Assembly (NCBI GenBank): GCA_018003315.1
Contig: JAGNEJ010000041.1
Coordinates: 1 to 40,538, forward strand
Direction of reading: 5' to 3'
DNA from: Verrucomicrobiales bacterium
Lineage (GTDB): Bacteria > Verrucomicrobiota > Verrucomicrobiia > Verrucomicrobiales > V1-33
DNA length: 40,538 bases
Every line of letters starts with the position of its first letter. Within the stretch, counting starts at the first letter, position 1. Under the pieces are notes generated by a model. That model was not told where the DNA came from, made no database searches, and saw only the letters and a program-made list of their open reading frames with translations. Position numbers and translations under genes: made by a program. Shown here one piece after another: positions 17,226-39,717 of the stretch.

Positions 17226-18668
17226 TCAGCGGAGCCGGTTCAGCGTGTAGCTGGCCTCGCGGTTGGCCAGTGGTTCTCCCGTGGCGGATTTGACCGAGTC
17301 CGCAAAGCGCAGCGTCCAGATTTTGTCAGGGACCGGCGGCACCTTGGCGGTGACGATCAATCCGTCAGCAGAAAGGGTGACGGATGCGGGAGTCACCGGC
17401 GTCCGGTCGAGGTCCGGCGAACCGTATTGCCCGCTGTAGCGATAGTGGAAATGTTCCATGGTCAGCCGGTCGGGACGGACGGAATCCGACGCCGCGGGCT
17501 TGGTAAAGGTGATGGAAAAGCCATCCGGCAGCAGCGAGACGGCTTTGATTTCGAAGGGAATGGTTTTCCCATCCCAGAGGATTTTTTGCAGGCCGAACTG
17601 TTTGCCGCCCGCGCTTCCCCAGCCGCGCCCGGACTGGCCCAGCCACAGGACTCCGTTGCGGTCGAATTTGGCGCGGATGATGCCGCACTGGGTGCGATTG
17701 ACGAACGGGAAGACACACCCCTGATATTCGCCGCCGACTTTTTCCAGACTGACTCGCAACAGGGTGTTCCTGGTCTGGTCGCCAATGAAGACCTGATCTT
17801 CAAATGGGCCGAATTTGCCTCCGGATTCATTGAAGACCGGTTCACCCGCGCTCTGGCCCAAATGATAGGGCAGCCACACCGCGGGCGGCGTGCGCAGCCT
17901 GGCGTAATCCTCCGGCGTCAGTGCGTTGAGGTCTTTGCCCTTGAACTGGGGATCATCCTTCAGGCTGCTGGGATGCCCGTGGAACCGGCCTTTGAGCACA
18001 TGGTAGAGGGCGTTGGTCGCATTCCAGTCCCCCTGGTTGTCCGTGTAGAAAAGTTCATCGTGCCGGTTGATGCCGATGCCGCACGGGGAGCGCAGCCCGG
18101 AACTCCACGGGGTGAAGATGCCGTCCGGAGTGACCTGGAAACTCCAGCCGCGGTATTTTGCATCGGCGCCCATGATGCTGCCGCCCACGGCGCCCTCGTT
18201 GCTGTGGGCGAGGTTCAGCGTTCCGTAGAAATTGCCCCTGGAGTCCCGGGGCAGGCCGAATGCGTAGCAATGGTAGTTCCCACTGTAGCCCCAGTCGGCG
18301 TTCACCGTTCTGAAGAAATCGCAGGAGCCGTCGTGGTTTTCATCGATGAGTTCCGTCAACTCCCCGCGCTGCAGGACAAAAACCTGCGCGGTTTGCGGGT
18401 CGATGTTCAGCCCCAGAGCCTCGTGCAGGCCTTCGGCAAACAGGGACCACGCGCCATCATGCAGCTTCCAGACCTCGCCGTGCCGGGTGCAGCACCAGGT
18501 GTCGCCATTCGGGTGAAAGGCGATGCCGCCGACCGCAAATTCCACGCCCGGAGGTGTGGGCACGGTCTCCAGCCGATAGCCGGCGGGAATGATTTCCGGC
18601 TGCGTTTCCTGACCCGCGGCGATGGCGGAGAACGCAATAAGAATGGTTAGTGGGCAGGGGCGCATCAT
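17226..18668 (-). CDS. Secreted propeller-type protein, sugar-dehydrogenase-like, PVC family
   Basis: 480 residues beginning with a signal peptide (MMRPCPLTILIAFSAIAAGQ). Successive blade-like strands are visible: 'VGGIAFHPNGDTWCCTRHGEVWKL', 'LGLNIDPQTAQVFVLQRGELTEL', 'GLRSPCGIGINRHDELFYTDNQGDW', 'FEDQVFIGDQTRNTLLRVSLEKV' and 'IIRAKFDRNGVLWLGQ'. These are typical of six-bladed sorbosone/glucose dehydrogenase-like propellers found in PVC membrane-bound dehydrogenases. A beta-sandwich tail (about 380-480) follows and matches the tail of the gene at the left edge. There is no CxxCH haem motif or PQQ-enzyme signature, so catalysis is unproven. It starts three bases after the stop of the blue-copper gene, indicating translational coupling and probable joint function in the periplasm. 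'NADWGYSGNYHCYAFGLPRDSRGNFYGTLN' is a strongly family-like segment. Confidence 0.8.
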   Translation of the reverse strand: MMRPCPLTILIAFSAIAAGQETQPEIIPAGYRLETVPTPPGVEFAVGGIAFHPNGDTWCCTRHGEVWKLHDGAWSLFAEGLHEALGLNIDPQTAQVFVLQRGELTELIDENHDGSCDFFRTVNADWGYSGNYHCYAFGLPRDSRGNFYGTLNLAHSNEGAVGGSIMGADAKYRGWSFQVTPDGIFTPWSSGLRSPCGIGINRHDELFYTDNQGDWNATNALYHVLKGRFHGHPSSLKDDPQFKGKDLNALTPEDYARLRTPPAVWLPYHLGQSAGEPVFNESGGKFGPFEDQVFIGDQTRNTLLRVSLEKVGGEYQGCVFPFVNRTQCGIIRAKFDRNGVLWLGQSGRGWGSAGGKQFGLQKILWDGKTIPFEIKAVSLLPDGFSITFTKPAASDSVRPDRLTMEHFHYRYSGQYGSPDLDRTPVTPASVTLSADGLIVTAKVPPVPDKIWTLRFADSVKSATGEPLANREASYTLNRLR

Positions 18669-18671
18669 GGC

Positions 18672-20114
18672 TTATCTGGCTTTCAGAAGGATGGAAAACC
18701 GGGAGGCTTTGCCGGAGGGAATTTCCACCGTGCAGCCGCTGACGGTTCCTTCCGGCGAGGAAATTTCGAGTCCTGCCGGGTCGAGCAGAAAGAACACCGG
18801 GCCGGGCGGCGCATTTTTGATGGCAAAATCAAAGCGGAGTCCCGGCTGCGAATTGTCCAGCGGGCCGATGGACTGTGTCACCTCGGCAGCGCCCACCCGG
18901 TAGAGCATCTGCGGAATGGCAGCTTTCCGATAGCCGGAAAATTTGACTACCGCCTGGCTGGCAGCGGAGCCGAACCGCAGCGGTGCCGGTTTTCCGCCGA
19001 CGTTGAACGGCTGGCCGAGAATCCGGCAGAGATTGCCACCCCGTCCAGTGTGGTCACCGGCCACATTGAGAAAGCCTCCGCGCCATCCGTTGACCACGCT
19101 GCCTTGTTCGGTGTCGAAGCTGTAATTGATGCCGCCGGGCAGTCCGACGGAAACGGTGCGGGTGCCGCCGCCCGGCACCAGGACCCGGAAAATGCGCGGT
19201 TCGGAGCCGACGGTGATGTCCAGTTCCCCCTCGACGGCGGCATCCGGATTGATCGCATCGTCCGTCAGGTTTTGCAGGGGCACGCCGGGACCCTGCATGG
19301 CCAGCCGGAGCACCTGTTCATTGCCCTGTTCAAAGTAGAGGATTTCCACGTCGTGATCGCCAGCCTGCAGCCGGCACTGGCCGGTGTGGGCAGTGCCGGA
19401 ACCGTGAATGCCGTCGTTGGCAACGACGAGTTTTCCGTCGATGAGGCATCCGCTGCCGTCGTCCGAATCCAGAAAAAATTTATAGGTTCCGTCCGCCGGG
19501 ACGTTCAGTTTCCCCTTCCAGATCAGGCCGAAGTTGTCCTCGCGCTTTCGAACTTTGAGGCTGAGCAGGCCGTTTTCCACGGTGCCGCTGGCGATGGGCG
19601 GGAGCTTTTTCAATTCGAACACGGAATGCACGCTGCCTTCAAAATACTGCCAATGGACGCCATGCAGTCCGGGCTTGGGAATGCCGACGAGCAGCAGGCC
19701 CTTCATGGTCATGGCGTGTCCGGGGTAGGTGCAGACGTAATGGTAAACTCCGGCTGCCTGCGGTGCAGTGAAGGTGATCGTCTGCTCAGCCCTTGGCTCA
19801 ACAATCCGCGTGGCCGCCAACACCCGGGCGTCGTCCGGCACGTAGTTTTTTTCCAAACCCTTTTCGCCGAGCGCCCACGCCTTCTGGGCCAGTTCCAGTC
19901 CGGTTTTCCCGCCCGGTGCGGCGAGGATGAAATTGTGCGGGAGATCGTCGGTGTTTTTCAGCGTCAGGGTGATTTTTTCCCCAGGCTTTGCCTCCAGCAC
20001 CTCCCGGTCGTAGCGCATTTGCCCGCGGAGGACTCCAAGCGTGATGGTCTGGTCCGCCTGCACGACGGCGGGAATCAACAGAGCGCCGAGGGCCAGGGCT
20101 GCACGAATGTCCAT
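18672..20114 (-). CDS. Secreted azurin/auracyanin-like blue-copper protein fused to a PA14-like domain
   Basis: 480 residues with a signal peptide (MDIRAALALGALLIPAVVQA). Residues about 22-145 form a cupredoxin domain. His60 in 'LPHNFILAAPGGK' and the azurin-type 'CTYPGHAMTMKG' loop supply Cys128, His133 and Met137, a complete type 1 copper site. Residues about 190-290 look like a PA14 carbohydrate-binding domain: 'GLIWKGKLNVPADGTYKFFLDSDDGSGCLIDGKLVV', then 'AGDHDVEILYFEQGNEQVLRLAM'. The last 180 residues are beta-rich and unassigned. It is followed after three bases by the propeller gene, so the pair looks like one functional unit. A small copper electron carrier tethered to glycan by PA14 could accept electrons from a partner oxidising sugars; this is inference. 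Promoter and ATG are only seven bases apart. Confidence 0.85.
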   Translation of the reverse strand: MDIRAALALGALLIPAVVQADQTITLGVLRGQMRYDREVLEAKPGEKITLTLKNTDDLPHNFILAAPGGKTGLELAQKAWALGEKGLEKNYVPDDARVLAATRIVEPRAEQTITFTAPQAAGVYHYVCTYPGHAMTMKGLLLVGIPKPGLHGVHWQYFEGSVHSVFELKKLPPIASGTVENGLLSLKVRKREDNFGLIWKGKLNVPADGTYKFFLDSDDGSGCLIDGKLVVANDGIHGSGTAHTGQCRLQAGDHDVEILYFEQGNEQVLRLAMQGPGVPLQNLTDDAINPDAAVEGELDITVGSEPRIFRVLVPGGGTRTVSVGLPGGINYSFDTEQGSVVNGWRGGFLNVAGDHTGRGGNLCRILGQPFNVGGKPAPLRFGSAASQAVVKFSGYRKAAIPQMLYRVGAAEVTQSIGPLDNSQPGLRFDFAIKNAPPGPVFFLLDPAGLEISSPEGTVSGCTVEIPSGKASRFSILLKAR

Positions 20115-20149: not shown

Positions 20150-20335
20150 TTCTGCCGCTTGGCGCATTGGCGTAGCTGCAGCGCACCTTGACACTCCAGT
20201 GCAGCGGCGGCACTGACAGCAGTCGCATCCCTGCCAGATGAACCCCATCCCGCCCACCGGAACGTCCACTCCCGTTTTTTGCTCCGCCAATCCACGCTCC
20301 GGAGCGGAACGATTCTGCCCGAGAAGTTGCCCGCA

Positions 20336-21679
20336 ATGACCCGGCTGGTTTTCATCCTCATGCACCTGTGCCTGGCCGCGGTTTCGTTTGCCGACGGGAA
20401 AGTGGTGCTGACATTGGAGCAAGCCTACGACCGGGCGCTGGCCACCGACCAGAGCATCCGCCAGGCGTTTTACGAATTGAAGAAGGCGGATCTGCTGCCG
20501 TCGAGCGCCCTCGCTCGGCTCGGCCCGAGCATCACCGGCAATGCGGGCCTGACGCAGGGGCGGGACCAGCGCAGCACCTCCGGCGCTTCCACCACAACTC
20601 CGCTCGGACGGGCCTCGGTGCAGGAGACTTCCTCCGTGCGCACGGCGCGCGGCACGGCGGACCTGACCTGGCAGCAGCCGTTGCTCGATTTTTCGGTTTT
20701 TCCGGCCCATCGGTTCGGAAAGCTGTCGATCGCTGCGGCCGAGTGGCAGCAGCGCTTCACCATCCGGGAAACCCTCTTCGGAGTGGCGCAGTCCTATTAC
20801 GAAGTGCTCAAGCAGCAGCGGCTGGTGGCCGTCAACCGAGAATCGCTGCAACTGTCCAACGAACAGCTTGCCGTTTCTGAAAAACGGGCGGCCGCGGGGG
20901 AAGTCACCCGATCGGACGTGCTGCGCACCCAGGTGGTGGTGGAAACCGCCCGGCGGACACTGGTGGAGTCCGAAGCCACCCTGGCCATCAACGAGGATAC
21001 CCTGCGCAATGCCCTGAATTTCGGCCCGCAAGTGGAACTCTCCCTGCTGGAACCGCCGGACGCTCCGGTGGGCCTTCCGGAGTTCGCCGATCTGCTGCAA
21101 CGGGCGAAAGTTTCCAGGGAGGATTTGAAGGTCCGCAGTCTGGCCATCGAACAGGAGATGGAAAAACGGCACGAAATCAAGGCTCAGTACTTGCCCAGGA
21201 TCGTCGCCCAGGTCAACGGCGGCTACACCGACGATTCCGGAACCACCAAGGCCAGCAACGAATACTGGTCCGCGGAGATTGGCGTGCAGGTGCCCCTCTT
21301 CACCGGCGGGCAGCGCGAAATCGATTTGAAAAACGCCCGCTATCTCATTGAACAAAGCCGGCTCGAAAAAGTGCAGTTGGAAAAGACCGTGGAGGCGGAA
21401 GTCCGGCAAGCCTGGCTGGATGTGCGCCGCCTGCGGGAAACCGTCAAGGCCCTCCAGGTGCAGGTGCGGGCTGCGGAGCAAAGCTACCGGGATTTGCAGA
21501 ACCAATACAAGGCCGGAACGGCGACCAGCGTGGATGTCCTCAGCGCGCTGAGCCAGCTGAATGTCTCCCGTCAGGATTTGTCAGCCGAAACCTACGACTA
21601 TCAAGTGGCTCTGCGCAGCCTGGACCGGGTTGCCGGAGTCTTCCAGGAGGCGCGGGTGCAACGGACAAAACTGCGATGA
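20336..21679 (+). CDS. TolC-family outer-membrane export factor
   Basis: 447 residues from the ATG at 20336, with a signal peptide (MTRLVFILMHLCLAAVSFADG). The two-fold repeated TolC pattern is visible. An N-terminal 'LTLEQAYDRALATDQSIRQAFYELKKAD' opens the first repeat. A later repeat carries 'VQVPLFTGGQREIDLKNARYLIEQS', and long amphipathic helices with heptad-like charge patterns separate short beta strands. The end ('LSALSQLNVSRQDLSAETYDYQVALRSLDRVAG') is typical. Its stop overlaps the start of the adaptor gene in ATGA (21676-21679), and ABC components follow, so it is the outer-membrane duct of a tripartite MacAB-type exporter. An upstream in-frame start (20279) is less likely because it precedes the signal peptide. 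It is divergent from the blue-copper gene. Confidence 0.9.
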   Translation: MTRLVFILMHLCLAAVSFADGKVVLTLEQAYDRALATDQSIRQAFYELKKADLLPSSALARLGPSITGNAGLTQGRDQRSTSGASTTTPLGRASVQETSSVRTARGTADLTWQQPLLDFSVFPAHRFGKLSIAAAEWQQRFTIRETLFGVAQSYYEVLKQQRLVAVNRESLQLSNEQLAVSEKRAAAGEVTRSDVLRTQVVVETARRTLVESEATLAINEDTLRNALNFGPQVELSLLEPPDAPVGLPEFADLLQRAKVSREDLKVRSLAIEQEMEKRHEIKAQYLPRIVAQVNGGYTDDSGTTKASNEYWSAEIGVQVPLFTGGQREIDLKNARYLIEQSRLEKVQLEKTVEAEVRQAWLDVRRLRETVKALQVQVRAAEQSYRDLQNQYKAGTATSVDVLSALSQLNVSRQDLSAETYDYQVALRSLDRVAGVFQEARVQRTKLR

Positions 21680-22860
21680 AAACCTGGATTCTGCTCATTC
21701 TGTTGGCGGCGGGAGCCGGGGGCGCATGGTGGTTCTTCAGCCGCGAGGAGGAGGACCGCCCTGCCTACATCACCGCCAGGGTAACCCGCGGCTCCCTCAC
21801 CCAGGTGGTCACGGCCACCGGGACGCTCAATCCGGTGATTAACGTGCAGGTCAGCAGCCAGATCTCCGGGAACATTCAGCAGCTGTTCGTGGATTTCAAT
21901 TCCCCGGTTAAGGCCGGCCAGGTGGTGGCCCAACTGGATGCGGCCACCTACCAGGCAATCAAGCACCAGGCGGAAGGAGACCTGGCCAGCGCCAAGGCCG
22001 CCCTGGAACTGGCCCGGCTCACGGCGAAACGGAAGCAGGAACTGGTGACCCAGAATGCGGCCCCGCAGGCGGACCTGGACGCCGCCATGGCGGACCTGCA
22101 CCAGACGGAGGCCTCGCTGGCCATCAAGCAGGCAATGCTGGAAAAGGCGAAGGTGGACCTCGGCAGATGCACCATTTATTCTCCGGTGGACGGCACGGTG
22201 ATTTCCCGTGACGTGGACGTGGGCCAGACGGTGGCAGCCTCGCTCAATGCTCCGGTGCTGTTCCGCATCGCCAATGACCTCACGAAAATGCAGATCCACA
22301 CCGCGGTTGCAGAGGCGGACGTGGGCAATGTGGCGGAAGGCCAGATGGTGGAATTCACCGTGGATGCCTTTCCCTACAAAACCTTTGAAGGAAAGGTGAG
22401 CCAGGTGCGCAATGCAGCGACGACGCTGCAGAACGTGGTGACCTATGATGTCATTGTGGGCGTGGACAACGGAGAACTGCTCCTGAAGCCGGGCATGACC
22501 GCGAACGTCTCCATCATCATTGCGCAAAGGATGGAGGTGCTGAAGCTGCCCAATGCCGCCCTGCGCTACCGCCCCGCAGCGCCCGAAGGCGAGGCTGGAA
22601 ACGGTGAGGGCCGCGAGCCTGCGCCACCCACGCGGCAGCAAAAAGCGGAAGGCAGGCTGCAGCGCACGGTGTATCTCCTTGGGCCGGATGGAAAACCCCA
22701 GCCCGTTTCCGTCAAGCCTGGCATCACCGACAGCATTCACACCGAACTGCTCGAAGGATTGAAGGAAAACGATGAAGTCATCACCGGCATCGACGAACCA
22801 ACCACGGTCGGCCAGCGGCCGAGCAGTCCGCTGGGCGGCGGCCGGTCGCGCTGGCGTTAG
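21676..22860 (+). CDS. macA: MacA-like periplasmic adaptor (membrane fusion protein)
   Basis: 394 residues. Residues 4-22 form a single N-terminal inner-membrane anchor. The lipoyl half-motif 'VSSQISGNIQQLFVDFNSPVKAGQVVAQLD' (about 56-85) is followed by a coiled-coil hairpin (about 95-165) and then the second half 'CTIYSPVDGTVISRDVDVGQTV'. Barrel and membrane-proximal domains follow ('VDAFPYKTFEGKVSQVRNAATTLQNVVTYDVIVGV'). This is the standard MacA/HlyD order. It links the inner-membrane ABC transporter encoded by the next two genes to the TolC-type channel encoded just before. The four-base overlap with the tolC-like gene implies translational coupling. A proline- and charge-rich insert ('PAAPEGEAGNGEGREPAPPT') interrupts the C-terminal part. 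The substrate is unknown; MacAB systems export macrolides, peptides or lipids. Confidence 0.9.
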   Translation: MKTWILLILLAAGAGGAWWFFSREEEDRPAYITARVTRGSLTQVVTATGTLNPVINVQVSSQISGNIQQLFVDFNSPVKAGQVVAQLDAATYQAIKHQAEGDLASAKAALELARLTAKRKQELVTQNAAPQADLDAAMADLHQTEASLAIKQAMLEKAKVDLGRCTIYSPVDGTVISRDVDVGQTVAASLNAPVLFRIANDLTKMQIHTAVAEADVGNVAEGQMVEFTVDAFPYKTFEGKVSQVRNAATTLQNVVTYDVIVGVDNGELLLKPGMTANVSIIIAQRMEVLKLPNAALRYRPAAPEGEAGNGEGREPAPPTRQQKAEGRLQRTVYLLGPDGKPQPVSVKPGITDSIHTELLEGLKENDEVITGIDEPTTVGQRPSSPLGGGRSRWR

Positions 22861-22907
22861 GACAGCCAGCGAACGCCACGCTTTGAACCGAGCGCGATTT
22901 TTTCACC

Positions 22908-23644
22908 ATGACGCCCGTCATTCAGCTTGAGTCCGTCTGCAAAACCTACAGCAGCGGCGATGTGGAGGTGAAGGCCGTGAGGGAAGTGAGCCTGACCGTT
23001 CTTCAGGGCGAATTTGTGGCGCTTCTGGGAGCCAGCGGTTCCGGGAAATCCTCGCTGATGAATCTGCTCGGTTGTCTGGACCGCCCCACATCCGGGCGGT
23101 ATCTGCTCGACGGGGTCGATGTCTCCACGCTGGGGCGCAATGAGCGGGCGGACATCCGCAGCCAGAAGCTGGGATTTGTTTTTCAGGGGTTCAATCTTCT
23201 GCCGCGGACTTCCGCATTGGAAAATGTCGAGCTGCCAATGATCTATGCCCGCCGACCGTTCAGCGCGAAGCAGCGGCGCGAGCGTTCGCTGGCTGCTCTG
23301 GAAATGGTGGGGCTGGCTGGTCGCGCCGGACACACTCCCAACAGGCTTTCCGGAGGACAGCAGCAGCGGGTGGCCATCGCCCGCGCCCTGGTGAACGAAC
23401 CCGCCCTGCTGCTGGCGGACGAGCCAACGGGAAATCTGGACACGCGCACCAGCGTGGAAATCATGGACATTTTCCAGCGGCTCAACACCCAGGGCATCAC
23501 CATTGTCATGGTCACGCACGAACTGGACATCGCCGCCTTCACCAAGCGCAGCCTGGTCATGCGCGACGGGCGGGTGGTGAAGGATGAACCGACGCGGGAA
23601 CGGCTGGATGCCGCCGTCCAGCTGGCCGCACTTCCCCTGCCGGC

Positions 23645-23648
<4 letters not shown>
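22908..23648 (+). CDS. ABC transporter ATPase, MacB/LolD type
   Basis: 246 residues of a complete nucleotide-binding domain: Walker A 'GASGSGKSSLMN' (about 43-54), Q-loop 'FVFQGFNLLPRTSALENVELP', signature 'LSGGQQQRVAIARAL', Walker B 'LLLADEPTGNLD', and the H-loop histidine in 'VMVTHELD'. The 'EPTGNLDTRTS' end is typical of the MacB/LolD/FtsE mechanotransmission class. In E. coli MacB this domain is fused to the permease. Here it is a separate protein whose TGA overlaps the permease ATG (23645-23648). A 47-base gap separates it from macA, but the operon is continuous. Confidence 0.93.
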
Positions 23649-24865
<1,217 letters not shown>

Positions 24866-33324: not shown

Positions 33325-34797
33325 TCATCCTTGCGGCCACAGGAGACTGAAACGGGCTCCCTGACCGGGGACGCTTTCCACGGCTGCCGATCCGCCATGA
33401 AGTTCCATGATCGCCTTGACGATGGCGAGACCGAGCCCGGTCTGGGGCGGTGCGTCCGGGTCATGCGTTCGGGCGGAGTCAACGCGATAGAATCGATCAA
33501 AAACGTGGGCAAGGTGTTCCGGCTGGATTCCTTCCCCCGTGTCGGCCACCGTCAACGCATGGCCGCCAGCGTCTGCGGCATCCGTGAACGTGATGGTGAT
33601 GGAACCGCCGGATGCAGTGTGCCGCAGGGCATTGCTGAGCAGATTCGTCAGGGCCTGACGAAACAGGGTGCGGTCTGCGATCAGCACTCCGGCGCCCTCC
33701 TGACGGAGGGAGATGCCCTTTTCCTGTGCGAGCTGTTCATGATAGTCCACGACCTCCCTGACGGCTTCGGCCGCGTCGAACCGGGTGATGCTCAGGGCGT
33801 GCTTCCGGTGGTCCGCCCGCGAGATGAACAGCAATCCGTCTGCAAGTCGCCGCAGCCGGTTGCATTCCTCGACGGTGCTTTCCAGCGCCACTCGGTATTC
33901 CTCCTCGGTGCGCCCGCGCTGCAGTGTCAGGCTGGCCAGCCCGAGCATGTTGTTGAGGGGACTGCGGATTTCATGGGCGGCATCATCAGAAAACTGGCGG
34001 ATCTGCTGAAACGAACGGCTCAGTCGTTCGCACAGTCCGGAGAAAGCCGAAGCCACTCCGGTCAACTCTCCCGGCCATTTCTGTGAGATCAGCGGCGGTT
34101 CCACGGATTGCCCGGACTGCAGTATGTCGGCACTGGTTGATTCAATCTGCCGGGTGATTTCATGCAGCGGCCGCAACCCGCGGCGAACGATCCACCAACT
34201 CAGCACCGCACTCAGCAGACTCCCCAGAATGACGACTCCGGCGAGTTCCAGGCGGAATGCCTGCATGAAGTGCTGTTCCGGAACCGCATCGGCGGTCATG
34301 TAATACGTGAGCAGAGAACCGGCACCCTGCGGCGCAATGCGTGCCGCGGCCAGGAAAACGGGTGCACCACTGCTGTTGGTGGTGGCATGGATGAGGACAT
34401 TGCGGTCATCGACAGCGGACGGCAGGGGAAAGGCGTGCAAGGGAGGGCTGGCTTCAGGGAATCCCGGCGTTTCAATGATCACCCGGCCATCCGTGGAAAC
34501 GAGCCGGCCATACGATTTTTCATTCTTGGTCCCTCCGATGGAGTGGTGCAGCAGTTCACGAATGCGCTGCTGTTCGGGACCGTCGTCCAGCACCGCGTGC
34601 CGGACCGCGGAAAGGTGATCCGCCAGCATTTCCTCGTGCTCATGCACCAGGCCGCGATGCATGGCGCGATCCAGATAGCAGGCCGCCAGCGTCAGCGTTC
34701 CGGCGGATGCCAGGGTGATCGCCGCCATCAGCCTGGTGCCGATGGAAATGGACCTCCGTTTGCCTGGCCGTTGCGCCGGTGCGGAGGAAGGATTCAT
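33325..34797 (-). CDS. Sensor histidine kinase of the metal-efflux locus
   Basis: 490 residues. An N-terminal transmembrane helix (about 23-42), a periplasmic sensor region (about 43-190) and a second transmembrane helix (about 190-210) are followed by HAMP ('LRPLHEITRQIESTSADIL'). The HisKA H-box 'DDAAHEIRSPLNN' has its phospho-accepting His at 275. The ATPase domain has 'LTNLLSNALRHT' (N box), 'ADTGEGIQPEHLAHVFDRFYR' (G1/F boxes) and 'GLGLAIVKAIMELHGG' (G2). The layout matches CusS/IrlB-type heavy-metal sensors. Its ATG overlaps the response regulator stop in a 4-base ATGA-type overlap (34794-34797). It is co-directional with the RND efflux genes upstream, so it likely controls them. The ligand (copper, silver, zinc or other) cannot be read. 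Confidence 0.92.
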   Translation of the reverse strand: MNPSSAPAQRPGKRRSISIGTRLMAAITLASAGTLTLAACYLDRAMHRGLVHEHEEMLADHLSAVRHAVLDDGPEQQRIRELLHHSIGGTKNEKSYGRLVSTDGRVIIETPGFPEASPPLHAFPLPSAVDDRNVLIHATTNSSGAPVFLAAARIAPQGAGSLLTYYMTADAVPEQHFMQAFRLELAGVVILGSLLSAVLSWWIVRRGLRPLHEITRQIESTSADILQSGQSVEPPLISQKWPGELTGVASAFSGLCERLSRSFQQIRQFSDDAAHEIRSPLNNMLGLASLTLQRGRTEEEYRVALESTVEECNRLRRLADGLLFISRADHRKHALSITRFDAAEAVREVVDYHEQLAQEKGISLRQEGAGVLIADRTLFRQALTNLLSNALRHTASGGSITITFTDAADAGGHALTVADTGEGIQPEHLAHVFDRFYRVDSARTHDPDAPPQTGLGLAIVKAIMELHGGSAAVESVPGQGARFSLLWPQG

Positions 34798-35489
34798 TCA
34801 CGGACCTCCAGCGTGTAACCGAGACCGCGCAGCGTATGGATGAGTCTGGGGCCTCGTCCGTCATCCACCTTTCTGCGCAGTCGGCCCATGGCCACGTCCA
34901 CTGCGTTGGAATCCGTGGAGAAATTCATGTCCCAAACCTGCTCAGCCAGCGTGGTGCGGGAGAGCACCTGCCCGCTGCGCCGGGCCAGATAGGTCAGAAG
35001 CTGGAATTCCTTGGCGGTCAACTCCAGCACTCTGCCGCCCCGCCGGGCCTTCATGCGCAGGGTGTCGATTTCCATGTCGCCGACACGGATGGTGTCAGGG
35101 CTGGACTGCGGGCATGCCTGGCCTGCGGCATGTTGCCGGCGCAGAATGTTGCGCACCCGCGCGATGAATTCCGACCAGGCAAACGGCTTCACCAGATAGT
35201 CGTCCGCACCAAGCTCCAGACCCTTCACGCGATCCGGCACGCTGTCCCTGGCGGTGAGAAACAAAACGGGAAGGCTGCATTTTCGCGACCGCAGCCCTGC
35301 CAGAGTGGTCCAGCCATCCCAGCCGGGCATCATGATGTCGAGCACCACCAAGTCGTAATTCCGATCCCCTACTGCTTCCATCGCCAGGTGGCCATTGGCT
35401 GCGGCATCCGCGATGAATCCTTCCTCGCGCAGGCCCCTGGCCAGGAATTCCCGAGTCTTTGGATCGTCATCGACAATAAGGATTCTCAT
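34794..35489 (-). CDS. OmpR-family response regulator of the metal-efflux locus
   Basis: 231 residues from the ATG at 35489 ('MRILIVDDDP'); a longer upstream reading adds non-family residues. Receiver domain: acidic pocket Asp7-Asp9, phospho-acceptor Asp51 in 'VVLDIMMPGWDG', the threonine in 'LFLTARD', and Lys101 in 'YLVKPF'. The C-terminal winged-helix DNA-binding domain shows 'LTAKEFQLLTYLARRSGQVLSRTTLAEQVWDMNF' and 'VDVAMGRLRRKVDDG', as in CusR/CopR. It is 63 bases downstream of the pump gene and overlaps the kinase gene, so pump and regulator share an operon. Confidence 0.94.
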   Translation of the reverse strand: MRILIVDDDPKTREFLARGLREEGFIADAAANGHLAMEAVGDRNYDLVVLDIMMPGWDGWTTLAGLRSRKCSLPVLFLTARDSVPDRVKGLELGADDYLVKPFAWSEFIARVRNILRRQHAAGQACPQSSPDTIRVGDMEIDTLRMKARRGGRVLELTAKEFQLLTYLARRSGQVLSRTTLAEQVWDMNFSTDSNAVDVAMGRLRRKVDDGRGPRLIHTLRGLGYTLEVRE

Positions 35490-35552
35490 GGCTTCAGTCT
35501 GGTTTTCACGGCGGGGATGCGCCACTGGAAAAATGATCGCGCAGCGGCCATG

Positions 35553-38500
35553 TCATGCAGGGCCGACATCTGCTGCCGGTCCGCCGCATGGTTCCGGGCC
35601 GGCAGTGTTCCTTCCCCAGCGACCGTAAAGTGCTGGAAGCAGCAGCAGGTTCATGATGGTGCTCGTGACCAGCCCGCCGAGGATGACCACGGCCATGGGG
35701 TGTTCGATTTCCTGTCCGGGAATGCTGCCGCGGGCGATGATGGGCGCAAGGGCGAGTGCCGCACAGGCAGCGGTCATGAGAATGGGCCCCAGCCGTTCCA
35801 TGGCTCCGCGCATCAACAGTTCGGGACCAAAACACATCCCCTCTGCATCCACCAGATGGCGGTAGTGGCTGATGAGCATGATCCCGTTGCGGGCGGCAAT
35901 GCCAAGCACCGTGACAAATCCCACCAGCGAACCGAGTGAAACCACGCCGCCGGACATCCACACCGCCAGCACGCCGCCAATGAGTGAGAACAGCAGGCTG
36001 AGCAGAACCAGCCCGGTGTGACTCAGAGCCTGGAAATCCGCCTGCAGCAACGCCGCCATTCCCAACAGGGAAGCCAGGCTCAGCCAGAGCAGTTGGCGAG
36101 AACTTTCCTGCCGGGCGGCATGTTCCCCCAGAAACTCTGCATGGTAGCCCGCGGGGAGACTGAGGGCGCCAACCCGCTTGCGGATGTCATCGACGACGGA
36201 ACCAAGGTCGCGTCCCGCTGCCTCACAGGTGATGTCAATGCGGCGTGAAGCGCCCTCGCGCTTGATTTCATTTGGCGCGGGGGAAATGCCCACATCGGCC
36301 ACTTCCCCCAGTCTCACGGTGCCGCCTCCCGGTGTGTTCAGGAGCAAATTTTGAATCGCCGCCGGATTGCTGCGCACCGCTTCCACACCCCAGACGGCGA
36401 CATCGTGAATGCGCTGCTGGCCATAGGTTTCACCGACCTTCAAGCCCTTCATTGTGGCAGTGACCATTCTGCGAATGTCCGATTCGGTCAATCCGTGCAG
36501 CGCTGCCTGGTCGTTGTGAATCCGAAGTTCGATCTGGGGCACCAGCATCTGCGCCTCCACTTTCAAGGATTTGATGCCGGGCACCGTCTTAACCACATCA
36601 GCGATGCGTGCTCCTTCCGTCCGGAGGGCGGCCAGATCCGGCCCGAACAGACGGATGACAATGCCGGCTCCCGCACCGGTGAGCACCTCCTTCACCCGCT
36701 CGCGAAGGTAGGTCTGCACATCGCGATACAGTCCGGGGTAGCCATCCACAATCTCTTGGATTTTGTCCACGGAAGTCCGGTAATCGACCTCCGGGCTCAA
36801 TGAGATCCAGAGCTCCGTAAAGTTAGGGCCTACGACTTCGTCGCCAAGTTCCGCACGGCCAATGTGGGATCCAAAGTGGTGCACCCCAGGCACCGAGCGG
36901 AGTTCCCTGCTGGCAGCCGTGGTGATGCGGGTCATGGCCTGCAGCGAGGTTCCGGGTTTTTCAATCCAGTGCATAAGGAAATCCCGCTCCATGAACGATG
37001 GCAGAAACTCCTGGCCAAGCCTGGTCGCTAGACTGCCAGTGCCAGCCACCATGGCTGCGACCGCGCACAGCGCCATGCGCGGTCTGGAGGTAAACACCGG
37101 CAAAATTCCGGAATAAATCCTCTTGAGAAACCGCAGCAGGGGTCCCTCCCGGTGAACGCGTGTTGTATTTCGCAGCAGCATAAAGCTGAGTGCCGGAGTT
37201 ACCGTCAGGGCGACGGCCAAGGAAGCCAGAATCGACAGCACGTAGGCCAGCGCCAATGGTCGGAAAAAACTGCCAGCCAGGCCAGTGAGAAAGAACACCG
37301 GCAGCATGACCAACACCACAATCAAGCTGGCATACACCACGGCGCTGCGCACTTCGAGCGAGGCGGAAAGCACGACCTGCGCCGGGGATTGACCTTCTGT
37401 CCGCTGCCGCAGGCGGCGCAGAATGTTTTCCACATCGATGATGGCATCGTCCACGACCTCTCCCAGAGCGATCACCAGACCTGCAATGACCATGGTGTTG
37501 AGCGTATGCCCCATGGCCTGCAGCACCAGCACCGCGGCCAGCAATGACAAGGGAATGGCAGCAAGGCTGATGAGCGCCGTCCGCCATTCATACAGGAAGA
37601 AAAACAGCACGGCTGCCACCAGAACGCATCCGATCCACAGGGCATGGTTGAGGTTTGCGATCGAGGTTTCGATGAATGTGGCGGGCCGGAAAATATGGGG
37701 ATCGAATTCCATGCCCGGCAGCGCCGGCTTTACGGCGGTGAGCGCGGCTTCCACCCCCCTGGTCACATCCAGGGTGTTACCCCACGGTTGTTTCTCCACG
37801 ATGAGCAGCAGACCGGGCACATCATTGATAATGGCGTCTCCAATGGGCGGAGGATTGCCCAATCTAACCTCGGCAACATCGCCCAGACGGACGGGAGCCC
37901 CGTTGCGGAACTCGACTGCGGTGCGGGCGAGATCCTCCACGCTGGAAAGGTGGCCGACCTCCCGCAGGGGAAGCCTCTGGTTAGGCGTGTCCACGAAGCC
38001 TCCGGGCATGAGGACAGCCGCCTGTCCGGCGGCTTTGATGACCGCATCCAGACTCACGCCGGTCAGCCGCAGCCGCTCTGGATCCACCAGAACCTGGTAC
38101 TGCTGATCCCGCTGCCCCCAGATCGCCACGTGAGCCACTCCCGGAACGGCCAGCAGGCGGGGGCGCAGCGTCCAACGCACCTGCTCGCTCAATTCGGATT
38201 GAGGCAGGGTTCCTGACGTGATGCCGATCTTCATGACCCGACTGAGTGAAGAGTGGGGCGACAACAACGTGGGTGCCTGCACCACCGCCGGGAGCTGGTT
38301 GCGCACCTGGGCAAGCCGGTCCTGCACGGACTGGCGGGCCTTCATCAAGTCCGTTCCCTCCTGAAAGATCAGAACCACAGAGGAAAGCCCTAGCACGGAT
38401 TTGGAACGGACTGTTTTCAGCCAGGGCAGGCCGTTCAGGGCATTTTCCAGTGGAACGGTGACCAGCGAATCCACCTCCTCCGTGCTCAGACCAGGAGCTT

Positions 38501-38654
38501 CCGTCTGGACTTCTGCCAGCGGCGGAGCGAATTCCGGAAAGACATCCAGCGGCGCGTGCTGCAGGCCGCGCAGCCCAAAGAACACCAATGCCAGTGCTGC
38601 CAAAAGCACCAGCATCCTGAAACGAAGGGCGCCCGATATGATTCCGCTCAGCAT
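35553..38654 (-). CDS. czcA: RND-type metal/cation efflux pump, CusA/CzcA family
   Basis: 1033 residues, the inner-membrane proton-driven pump of a tripartite system. The N-terminus, '[23 protein letters not shown] ... [23 protein letters not shown]', is the heavy-metal-efflux subfamily signature. The transmembrane proton-relay region '[21 protein letters not shown]' (about 396-416) carries the paired Asp. The typical '[20 protein letters not shown]' and '[18 protein letters not shown]' lie near the C-terminus. Twelve transmembrane segments in two halves with two large periplasmic loops are apparent. I did not identify CusA's methionine relay, so the substrate ion is uncertain. The gene lies between adaptor and regulator genes on the same strand. 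Symbol is by family only. Confidence 0.9.
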
Positions 38655-38708
38655 TCAGGTTGCCGTTGAAGCGACGCCCATCCCGGCGGTGACCAGTGAT
38701 GTTCCCAT
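38655..38708 (-). CDS. Possible 17-residue leader ORF directly before the pump gene
   Basis: Minus strand, in the pump's own frame: ATG (38706-38708), 17 codons ([17 protein letters not shown]), then TGA (38655-38657) directly abutting the pump ATG. AGGA lies three bases before this ATG, closer than ideal. It could couple translation of the pump to ribosomes finishing the leader, or be chance in a 73-base gap. Confidence 0.2.
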
Positions 38709-38727
38709 GATTCCTTCGGGGTAGGGG

Positions 38728-39717
38728 TCATTTGAATCCTCCAAACTCAGCTCCAAAAAGTTCCGCCGCACCCACGCTGACAATGTTCGTTCCTTCCACT
38801 GGGCCGGATGTCAGAATGGCGGTGTCACCCGCAACCCGCTGCAATGAAACGCGACGGCGGGCAAACGAGGTCTCCTCCTGCCTCTCATAAATCCACGTTC
38901 CTCCCGTGGCATCAAAAATGATGCTGGACCAGGGAACTGTCAGACATGGGGAACCGTCATCCCCGCGGCTAGGGATCTGCATTTCCACCAGTTGACCTGT
39001 TAGCAAAGTGGCATCAGAAATCGCATAGCAGATTTCCACGGAGCCGCCGGGGAGGGCCGTGGAGATGCGCCTAACCGGAGCGGCAGACTGGAGTTTTTCC
39101 TTCCCGGTTCCTGGAATCCGCAGGGAGGCCGCCCGCTGCAGGTCCGCCACGGCAAGATCGGCGGAAGGCAGGACCACCGCGATCCAGCGCTCGGATTTCG
39201 CTACCACATCCGCTGCCGGACGCCCGAGCAGCGCCCTGCTGCGCTCTGCGGCGGCCAGGGCTGCCGCGGCCTGAAGCTCGGCCGCCTTCGCTTCATCCAG
39301 AACTCGTTCACTCCCCGCTTTGGCGGCATTCAAAATTTCCGCCCGCTTCCGTGCCTGAGCCGCCACTTCCAGCGCGGCTCTCGCGGATTCCACCATGCCA
39401 TCCGCAGCGGTTTGAAGTTCAGCCTGCCTGCGCAGCTCCTCCGGACCGGAAACGGGCGCAGGGGCCAGCGAGTCCGCTGCGCCTCCCAGGGGGATGCGGA
39501 CGGTTCCGGGATAAAGCCTGACATTGGGAAGGGATTGGCGTTCCACCGTGGATGTCACAATGCCCAGACGCTGCACCGCCTGCGAGGTCAGCCGCAGCAC
39601 CGGCAGCGCCTGCTCCGTAATGGCATTGTCCACCCTGGATGGCGGGTTGCCCGATTCGGCAGCGTTCAGAAGGCCAAGCATTCCGAGGATTCGCGATGCA
39701 GACAGGCATGTTTTCAT
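38728..39717 (-). CDS. czcB: RND efflux periplasmic adaptor, CzcB/CusB-like, with shortened lipoyl region
   Basis: 329 residues with a signal-like N-terminus (MKTCLSASRILGMLGLLNAA). The N-terminal strand 'LPVLRLTSQAVQRLGIVTSTVERQSLPNVRLYPGTVRIP' matches the family. A helical hairpin ('SARAALEVAAQARKRAEIL ... VLDEAKAAELQAAAALAAAERSRALLG', about 110-170) follows. The barrel and C-terminal region ends '...LTVPWSSIIFDATGGTWIYERQEETSFARRRVSLQRVAGDTAILTSGPVEGTNIVSVGAAELFG', also typical. Usual adaptors carry a lipoyl half-motif with a 'G..V..GQ.L..L' turn before the hairpin. Here 'APAPVSGPEELRRQAEL' goes almost straight into the helix, so that half-motif seems lost or greatly reduced, and the protein is about 50-80 residues short. 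It is encoded between the outer-membrane factor and the pump. Confidence 0.82.
   Translation of the reverse strand: MKTCLSASRILGMLGLLNAAESGNPPSRVDNAITEQALPVLRLTSQAVQRLGIVTSTVERQSLPNVRLYPGTVRIPLGGAADSLAPAPVSGPEELRRQAELQTAADGMVESARAALEVAAQARKRAEILNAAKAGSERVLDEAKAAELQAAAALAAAERSRALLGRPAADVVAKSERWIAVVLPSADLAVADLQRAASLRIPGTGKEKLQSAAPVRRISTALPGGSVEICYAISDATLLTGQLVEMQIPSRGDDGSPCLTVPWSSIIFDATGGTWIYERQEETSFARRRVSLQRVAGDTAILTSGPVEGTNIVSVGAAELFGAEFGGFK

Follow-up and report, generated by a model that had tools for sequence, protein, structure and literature searches.

A cupredoxin and propeller gene pair of Verrucomicrobiales as a putative exported sugar or glycoside dehydrogenase with an exchangeable electron acceptor

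Closest described systems

Several described dehydrogenases of sugars and glycosides resemble, each in part, a pair of adjacent genes, P0001 and P0002, located in a stretch of 40,538 nucleotides from a Verrucomicrobiales bacterium (contig JAGNEJ010000041.1 of assembly GCA_018003315.1; the whole stretch analysed is called the window). P0001 encodes a blue-copper (cupredoxin) protein and P0002 a propeller protein. Together they are read here, as a moderately probable interpretation, as a putative dehydrogenase of sugars or glycosides that is exported, carries its own exchangeable electron acceptor and in many cases is coupled to the cleavage of 3-keto-glycosides.

The fungal enzyme CcPDH, composed of an AA8 cytochrome b domain, an AA12 propeller and a CBM1 domain, resembles the pair in that its sugar-dehydrogenase propeller comes with an integral haem acceptor and with a module that binds carbohydrates (PMC6881789, in part). 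With a Z of 24.4, the AA12 domain of CcPDH (6jt5) ranks among the closest structural matches of P0002. In contrast, CcPDH is a single fungal chain with haem b, whereas the bacterial pair is encoded by two genes, has blue copper or haem c and an additional mutarotase-like domain, and partly lacks the residues that hold pyrroloquinoline quinone (PQQ).

Soluble aldose sugar dehydrogenases (Asd) and soluble glucose dehydrogenase (sGDH), both covered by PF07995, share with P0002 a six-bladed propeller, a catalytic His and a quinone-contacting Arg. P0002 differs from them in scoring below the Pfam cut-off, in lacking the PQQ-binding Lys and Arg-x-Arg, and in having an extra C-terminal domain and a dedicated carrier partner. 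Since it fails both the Pfam cut-off and the PQQ carboxylate residues, P0002 should not be filed under PQQ-GSDH. The proteins with the PVC-type heme-binding CxxCH domain (TIGR02604) and DUF7133 have a related propeller, and some of those in the window's genome carry a cupredoxin (L094, L097). Unlike TIGR02604 proteins, P0002 has no CxxCH and scores far below their cut-off (19.5 against 122.2 bits).

The glycoside 3-dehydrogenases LacABC and GldABC contain a cytochrome c subunit, and the catalytic LacA is a GMC flavoprotein. Unlike the P0001/P0002 pair they have no propeller; the proposed job is the same, a periplasmic oxidation that feeds DUF1080 proteins (PMC9007349, in part). In Caulobacter, DUF1080 proteins are neighbours of LacABC, the periplasmic lactose 3-dehydrogenase, and display lactose phenotypes in fitness data (same source, in part).

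A description of the pair was not found in the literature searched, in which the coverage of subscription journals was poor, and neither were the names DUF6797 and DUF7133. Few extracytoplasmic enzymes that make keto-substrates for DUF1080 are known, one of which is described in PMC9007349. A recurrent pair uniting a sugar-dehydrogenase propeller, a swappable copper or haem carrier and DUF1080 is a concrete candidate for such a maker outside the cytoplasm and, if the reading is true, suggests an undescribed route of carbohydrate breakdown. Furthermore, DUF6797 and DUF7133, two Pfam domains still without a name, gain a working context.

The gene pair and the proteins it encodes

The pair and its parts are located as follows (residue numbers refer to the encoded proteins).

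18672..20114, minus strand: P0001, 480 amino acids, cupredoxin, PA14 and DUF6797-like domain
20055..20114, minus strand: signal-peptide-like start of P0001 (residues 1-20, ending VQA), read by eye
19686..20051, minus strand: cupredoxin domain of azurin/auracyanin type (residues 22-143), by PF00127 and by azurins and auracyanin A in the PDB
19704..19937, minus strand: type 1 copper ligands His60, Cys128, His133 and Met137, residues verified in P0001
19281..19547, minus strand: PA14 domain (residues 190-278), by PF07691 and the PDB match 6qdi (E 5e-15)
18675..19256, minus strand: third domain of P0001 (residues 287-480), DUF6797-like, predicted mutarotase-like beta-sandwich, by a weak PF20601 match and a model
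17226..18668, minus strand: P0002, 480 amino acids, propeller and C-terminal beta domain
17565..18587, minus strand: six-bladed propeller of sugar-dehydrogenase type (residues ~28-368), by predicted structure and hhalign
17241..17549, minus strand: C-terminal beta domain of P0002 (residues ~374-476), by the secondary structure of the model
18270..18272, minus strand: His133 of P0002, aligned by hhalign with the catalytic His of PQQ sugar dehydrogenases (sGDH His144)
18090..18092, minus strand: Arg193 of P0002, aligned by hhalign with the quinone-contacting sGDH Arg228

An earlier note on this DNA had placed the two genes three bases apart, and this spacing is confirmed by the stop codon of P0001 (18672-18674) and the ATG of P0002 (18666-18668). 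Signal-peptide-like N-termini can be read by eye in both proteins. The full type 1 copper site and the PA14-like domain that the same note had described in P0001 are also borne out: the Copper-bind domain PF00127 reaches 40.8 bits (cut-off 21.2) and PA14 PF07691 reaches 47.9 bits (cut-off 24) in Pfam searches, and the context of the four copper ligands is typical of azurins. The nearest solved structures to P0001 are a PA14 protein (6qdi), the blue-copper protein 6kol, auracyanin A and azurins. All four ligands are kept in each of the 47 aligned cupredoxin domains of the family; this conservation, together with the recurrence of the pair in several phyla, indicates that the copper site and the pair are more than chance.

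The structure of P0002, modelled from 41 sequences, was predicted with a mean pLDDT (predicted local distance difference test) of 93.1 and a pTM (predicted template-modelling score) of 0.91. Its 16 best structural matches are all PQQ-type sugar dehydrogenases, with Z from 30.6 to 23.8. The best of them is 3a9g (Z 30.6, root-mean-square deviation (rmsd) 2.8 over 301 residues), and others are E. coli Asd (2g8s, Z 28.4), fungal AA12 (25.5) and sGDH (1qbi, 25.3; 1cru, 23.8). The first match that is not a dehydrogenase is mouse SMP30 (Z 23.7). A comparison by hhalign of the P0002 family with four proteins of the GSDH group, including a close relative of E. coli Asd (254 bits to 2g8s), gave a probability of 97 and an E of 1.2e-10 over 278 columns. 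Thus, the sugar-dehydrogenase-like propeller of the earlier note stands as regards fold and profile alignment, whereas the Pfam search leaves P0002 below the cut-offs of both GSDH PF07995 (17.3 against 25 bits) and DUF7133 (26.5 against 27 bits). The relatives L106, L115 and L119 do pass the GSDH cut-off.

Sequence searches of the PDB were uninformative, so that a structure was needed for the propeller assignment: the propeller-family profile returned nothing beyond matches to short repeats (Pizza, PknD) and a small number of other weak ones, and P0002 alone returned one chance match.

Recurrence of the pair and exchange of the carrier

Relatives of the propeller family were surveyed in named genomes through the best 80 of 432 loci, and the counts therefore describe near relatives of P0002; domains were assigned with models built in-house on the first loci. 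These 80 loci hold 81 propellers and, according to the record titles, come from Verrucomicrobiota, Planctomycetota, Bacteroidota, Alteromonas, Paraglaciecola, a Vicinamibacteraceae metagenome-assembled genome (MAG) and others. The C-terminal beta domain follows the propeller in all 81. The third domain of P0001 accompanies 77 of them, encoded on the same strand no more than 2.5 kb upstream or, in one case, in the same chain; it was not found with the propellers of L139, L143, L159 and L166.

Carriers were recognised by a copper site or by the haem signature CxxCH, which turns up by chance in 6 of 3160 composition-shuffled chains. One carrier kind is present in 75/81 pairs, both kinds in none, and none was seen in six. 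Copper is located in the partner in 7/81 pairs and in the propeller protein in 15/81. Haem signatures appear once in the partner (8/81), five times in the partner (27/81) or once in the propeller chain (18/81), the last group including L137, a single chain of haem, third domain and propeller.

The history of these carriers was followed on a quick tree of 102 propellers, built without bootstrap, in which the long branch of L067 is unsure. Twenty family propellers were added to it by hand; it omits truncated, duplicate or lone propellers (L042, L068, L069, L081, L082, L084, L089, L090, L104 and the second one of L086) as well as two long fusions, L094 and L095. Copper and haem have replaced each other at least seven times on this tree, and carrier kind plus place has changed at least ten times. 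For instance, L182 (haem) stands next to L168 (copper), and L134 (haem) lies amid copper pairs. The repeated replacement of a one-electron carrier by another kind, in either subunit, suggests that electron transfer is the selected function. As a side observation, L146, L148, L151, L154 and L178, titled Proteobacteria, Akkermansia muciniphila or Candidatus Kuenenia, fall amid planctomycete and verrucomicrobial pentahaem pairs, and the taxonomic labels of these MAGs look doubtful.

The neighbourhood is also conserved closer to the window, where the survey of it proposed in the earlier note gave a positive answer. A P0001 match is present in all 13 genomes searched of the window's family, and the gene for cupredoxin, PA14 and third domain adjoins the propeller gene in 11 of them, the cupredoxin of G006 being cut by a contig end. 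In G002, the cupredoxin is lost at a contig end, and PA14, third domain and propeller remain. The pair is therefore not confined to one strain, having been found again in several phyla. Across the wider phylum, P0001 matches (E <= 1e-30) occur in 7 of 288 sampled genomes, its own included, and in 5 of 152 genera; the description of cupredoxin plus PA14 as an uncommon combination is right for this sample. A P0002 relative lies within the 1.5 kb flank in four of the six other matching genomes.

The third domain and the link to DUF1080

Residues ~287-480 of P0001 form a separate conserved domain, overlooked in the earlier note, which is the companion of the propeller. DUF6797 (PF20601) scores 15.7 bits there, below its cut-off of 24.9, and the homologous third domains of L111 and L145 exceed this cut-off. 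Modelled alone from 40 sequences, the domain is a beta-sandwich with a pLDDT of 93.3. Foldseek gave no match to this model below E 0.001. The top structural match is yeast hexose-6-phosphate mutarotase (VIA Z 10.3, rmsd 2.9 over 140 residues); most of those ranked next are galactose mutarotases or mutarotase-like domains that belong to glycoside hydrolases and polysaccharide lyases. As YidC periplasmic domains are also among the matches (Z 9.1), the likeness is one of fold, not of function.

The DUF1080 domain (PF06439, 3-keto-disaccharide-hydrolase) is present in 38 of the 81 pairs, in three arrangements. In Bacteroidota it forms the N-terminus of the partner (L131, 93.5 bits; L122, 76.3; cut-off 26.8); elsewhere it is found at the N-terminus of a pentahaem partner (L116, 116.3 bits in Pfam; L163 and L171 by in-house model) or at the C-terminus of the propeller (L115, 158, and L119, 215.1 bits in Pfam; L118 and L155 by in-house model). 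It was confirmed by Pfam in L115, L116, L119, L122 and L131, and assigned in the others by a model grown from two Pfam-confirmed seeds. On the propeller tree, its presence has changed at least five times. Elsewhere in the window's genome there are 16 PF06439 matches, and the 13 family genomes have 16 to 33 each.

Proposed mechanism and alternative explanations

Three observations support the suggestion of the earlier note that a blue-copper protein serves a sugar-dehydrogenase-like propeller as its redox partner outside the cytoplasm, namely the recurrence of the pair, the swap between copper and haem, and the fold of the propeller. P0001 and P0002 would be two subunits of one exported sugar or glycoside dehydrogenase. 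The propeller would oxidise a carbohydrate through a bound cofactor and, as the copper/haem exchange suggests, pass the electrons singly to the blue-copper domain, from which they would reach the respiratory chain. The DUF6797-like domain, as the constant partner of the propeller, probably docks the two proteins, holds the sugar, or both, and PA14 would be an optional addition. For many relatives, oxidation probably yields a 3-keto-glycoside, which the fused DUF1080 domain would cleave; in the window's organism this cleavage may be left to separate DUF1080 proteins. A broader proposal, that the pairs represent a widespread, undescribed class of extracytoplasmic glycoside 3-dehydrogenases, is tentative and rather doubtful. 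Such a class would combine a propeller whose cofactor is not PQQ or is bound atypically, a mutarotase-like DUF6797 partner and interchangeable copper, monohaem or pentahaem wiring, and would feed the many DUF1080 enzymes of Planctomycetota, Verrucomicrobiota and Bacteroidota.

The pocket predicted for P0002 is of quinoprotein type. His133 and Arg193 are invariant in 41/41 propellers (alignment A2), and in the family set A1 a Cys takes the His133 position in one of 20 rows (L067). The functions of Lys377, Arg408 and His144 in sGDH and of the corresponding AA12 residues have been described (PMC6881789, in part). Where PQQ enzymes have an Asn after the quinone-contacting Arg, the P0002 family has an invariant Ser194. 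The earlier note had seen neither a PQQ nor a haem motif in the propeller; the absence of CxxCH and the residue losses given below agree with it, whereas the invariant catalytic His and Arg do not. Gln212-Gly213, considered as the counterpart of sGDH Gln246-Gly247, was one position off in the hhalign alignment and was not used.

Several observations weigh against the dehydrogenase reading, and the most serious concern the cofactor. PQQ was the initial idea. However, the counterpart of sGDH Lys377, the PQQ carboxylate-binding Lys, is Thr299 in P0002, and the C-terminal Arg-x-Arg of PQQ enzymes is not kept. PqqE (TIGR02109) is over its cut-off in none of the 13 genomes of the window's family and, outside it, in one of 24 genomes with named pairs, which cover 24 of the 80 loci. 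The sole positive genome among these 37, Alteromonas G013 (538.7 bits), shows that the search is able to detect PqqE, which is over the cut-off in none of 14 control genomes. The residue check and the near-absence of PqqE weakened the idea of PQQ, and leave the assumed cofactor without a candidate. As for the carrier, six of the 81 propellers have no signature. L109 lies at a contig edge, L161 has five haems in an overlapping open reading frame (ORF) just upstream and is thus probably a split gene, and L139 has a PSCyt1/PSCyt2 protein upstream; L110 has the partner domain and no carrier, and L143 and L159 have neither. In G008, which belongs to the window's genus, a P0001 relative occurs without a neighbouring propeller. 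The mutarotase-like match of the third domain is moderate, given that unrelated models often reach a Z of 7 to 8. DUF1080 is absent, by Pfam search, from the P0001/P0002 pair itself and from all seven pairs with copper in the partner. Finally, the DUF1080 family also includes an endo-xanthanase/lichenase (PMC9007349, in part), and some of its members have been proposed as xanthan glycosidases (PMC5673643, in part), so that DUF1080 is not sole proof of 3-keto chemistry.

Three other explanations have to be considered. The pair could be an ordinary PQQ aldose dehydrogenase that scavenges PQQ and oxidises free sugars at C1 to lactones, with the cupredoxin replacing a soluble acceptor. The nearest fold is indeed that of PQQ sugar dehydrogenases, with the catalytic His and quinone-contacting Arg kept, and E. 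coli retains an Asd although it does not make PQQ. Moreover, the missing Lys need not be fatal, because AA12 enzymes bind PQQ through a partly different set of residues (PMC6881789, in part). The loss of Lys and Arg-x-Arg and the change of Asn to Ser194, the detection of PqqE in a single genome, and the fused DUF1080 domains, which suit a glycoside better than a free sugar, make this explanation unlikely. It is more improbable still that the propeller is a non-redox binding, lyase or hydrolase subunit and that the carrier serves, for example, a polysaccharide monooxygenase or an extracellular electron route. Lactonases and SMP30-like propellers do appear among the matches of P0002 at Z ~23, the propeller is without a candidate cofactor, and the five haems of many relatives exceed the need of a simple acceptor; against this, the top structural matches are all dehydrogenases, and the carrier belongs to the pair itself, in either subunit or in a fused chain, in 75 of the 81 cases.

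The version given in the earlier note, in which the purpose of the pair is the tethering of the copper carrier to glycans by PA14, has the lowest probability of the three and is held to be very unlikely. P0001 and L113 have PA14, as do the family cupredoxin pairs and many haem-type pairs. Nevertheless, it is absent from six copper pairs (L106, L107, L108, L145, L152, L160) and five haem pairs (L111, L112, L121, L150, L157), and among these the propellers of L106, L107 and L108 are close relatives, 51-54% identical to P0002 (alignment A2). Given its absence from these three and several other pairs, PA14 is optional; on sequence grounds it comes and goes, and a "glycan-bound copper" appears dispensable for the core function. 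Glycan binding is not a property of every PA14 domain. Of the earlier proposal that glycan-bound copper electron transfer serves the propeller, the copper serving the propeller as a redox pair is retained and the glycan-bound part is not.

Kinship and further pairs

On the propeller tree, P0002 groups with L113 and L106-L110 with 98% support in the Shimodaira–Hasegawa-like approximate likelihood-ratio test (SH-aLRT), and the pairs of the window's own family form a separate group. L113 (WGMA01000048.1, a Phycisphaera MAG) has the same architecture of cupredoxin, PA14 and third domain, and its propeller is 51% identical; both gene transfer and a misassigned contig are possible. A short third-domain protein is encoded immediately upstream of the L113 pair.

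Other arrangements were also seen. The window's genome has a second pair (L067, G000:C101:69398-71883), in which the carrier is composed of DUF6807, cupredoxin and third domain and the propeller has a Cys in place of the conserved His. Two single chains of the same genome unite a propeller with a C-terminal cupredoxin, fused in L094 (G000:C84) to a sugar-isomerase-like barrel (below cut-off) and DUF6797 (over cut-off), and in L097 (G000:C53) to GDSL and F5/8 domains and DUF7133. In L086 (G012:C40), two genes for cupredoxin, PA14 and third domain alternate with propeller genes, the second propeller being split over two ORFs.

Neighbouring genes in the window

At the contig edge, a truncated ORF (1-594) is similar to P0002 in the C-terminal portion of the latter (E 9.5e-6), and another propeller protein is thus probably encoded just beyond the window. 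Directly upstream of the pair and divergent from it, positions 20279-24865 encode in series, as read by eye, an outer-membrane efflux protein, a membrane-fusion protein, an ATP-binding cassette (ABC) ATPase and a MacB-like permease. Farther along, at 33325-39717, in a region that may have a link to copper, a sensor kinase, a large resistance-nodulation-division (RND)-type pump resembling heavy-metal efflux pumps (35553-38654) and a membrane-fusion-like protein were likewise recognised by eye.

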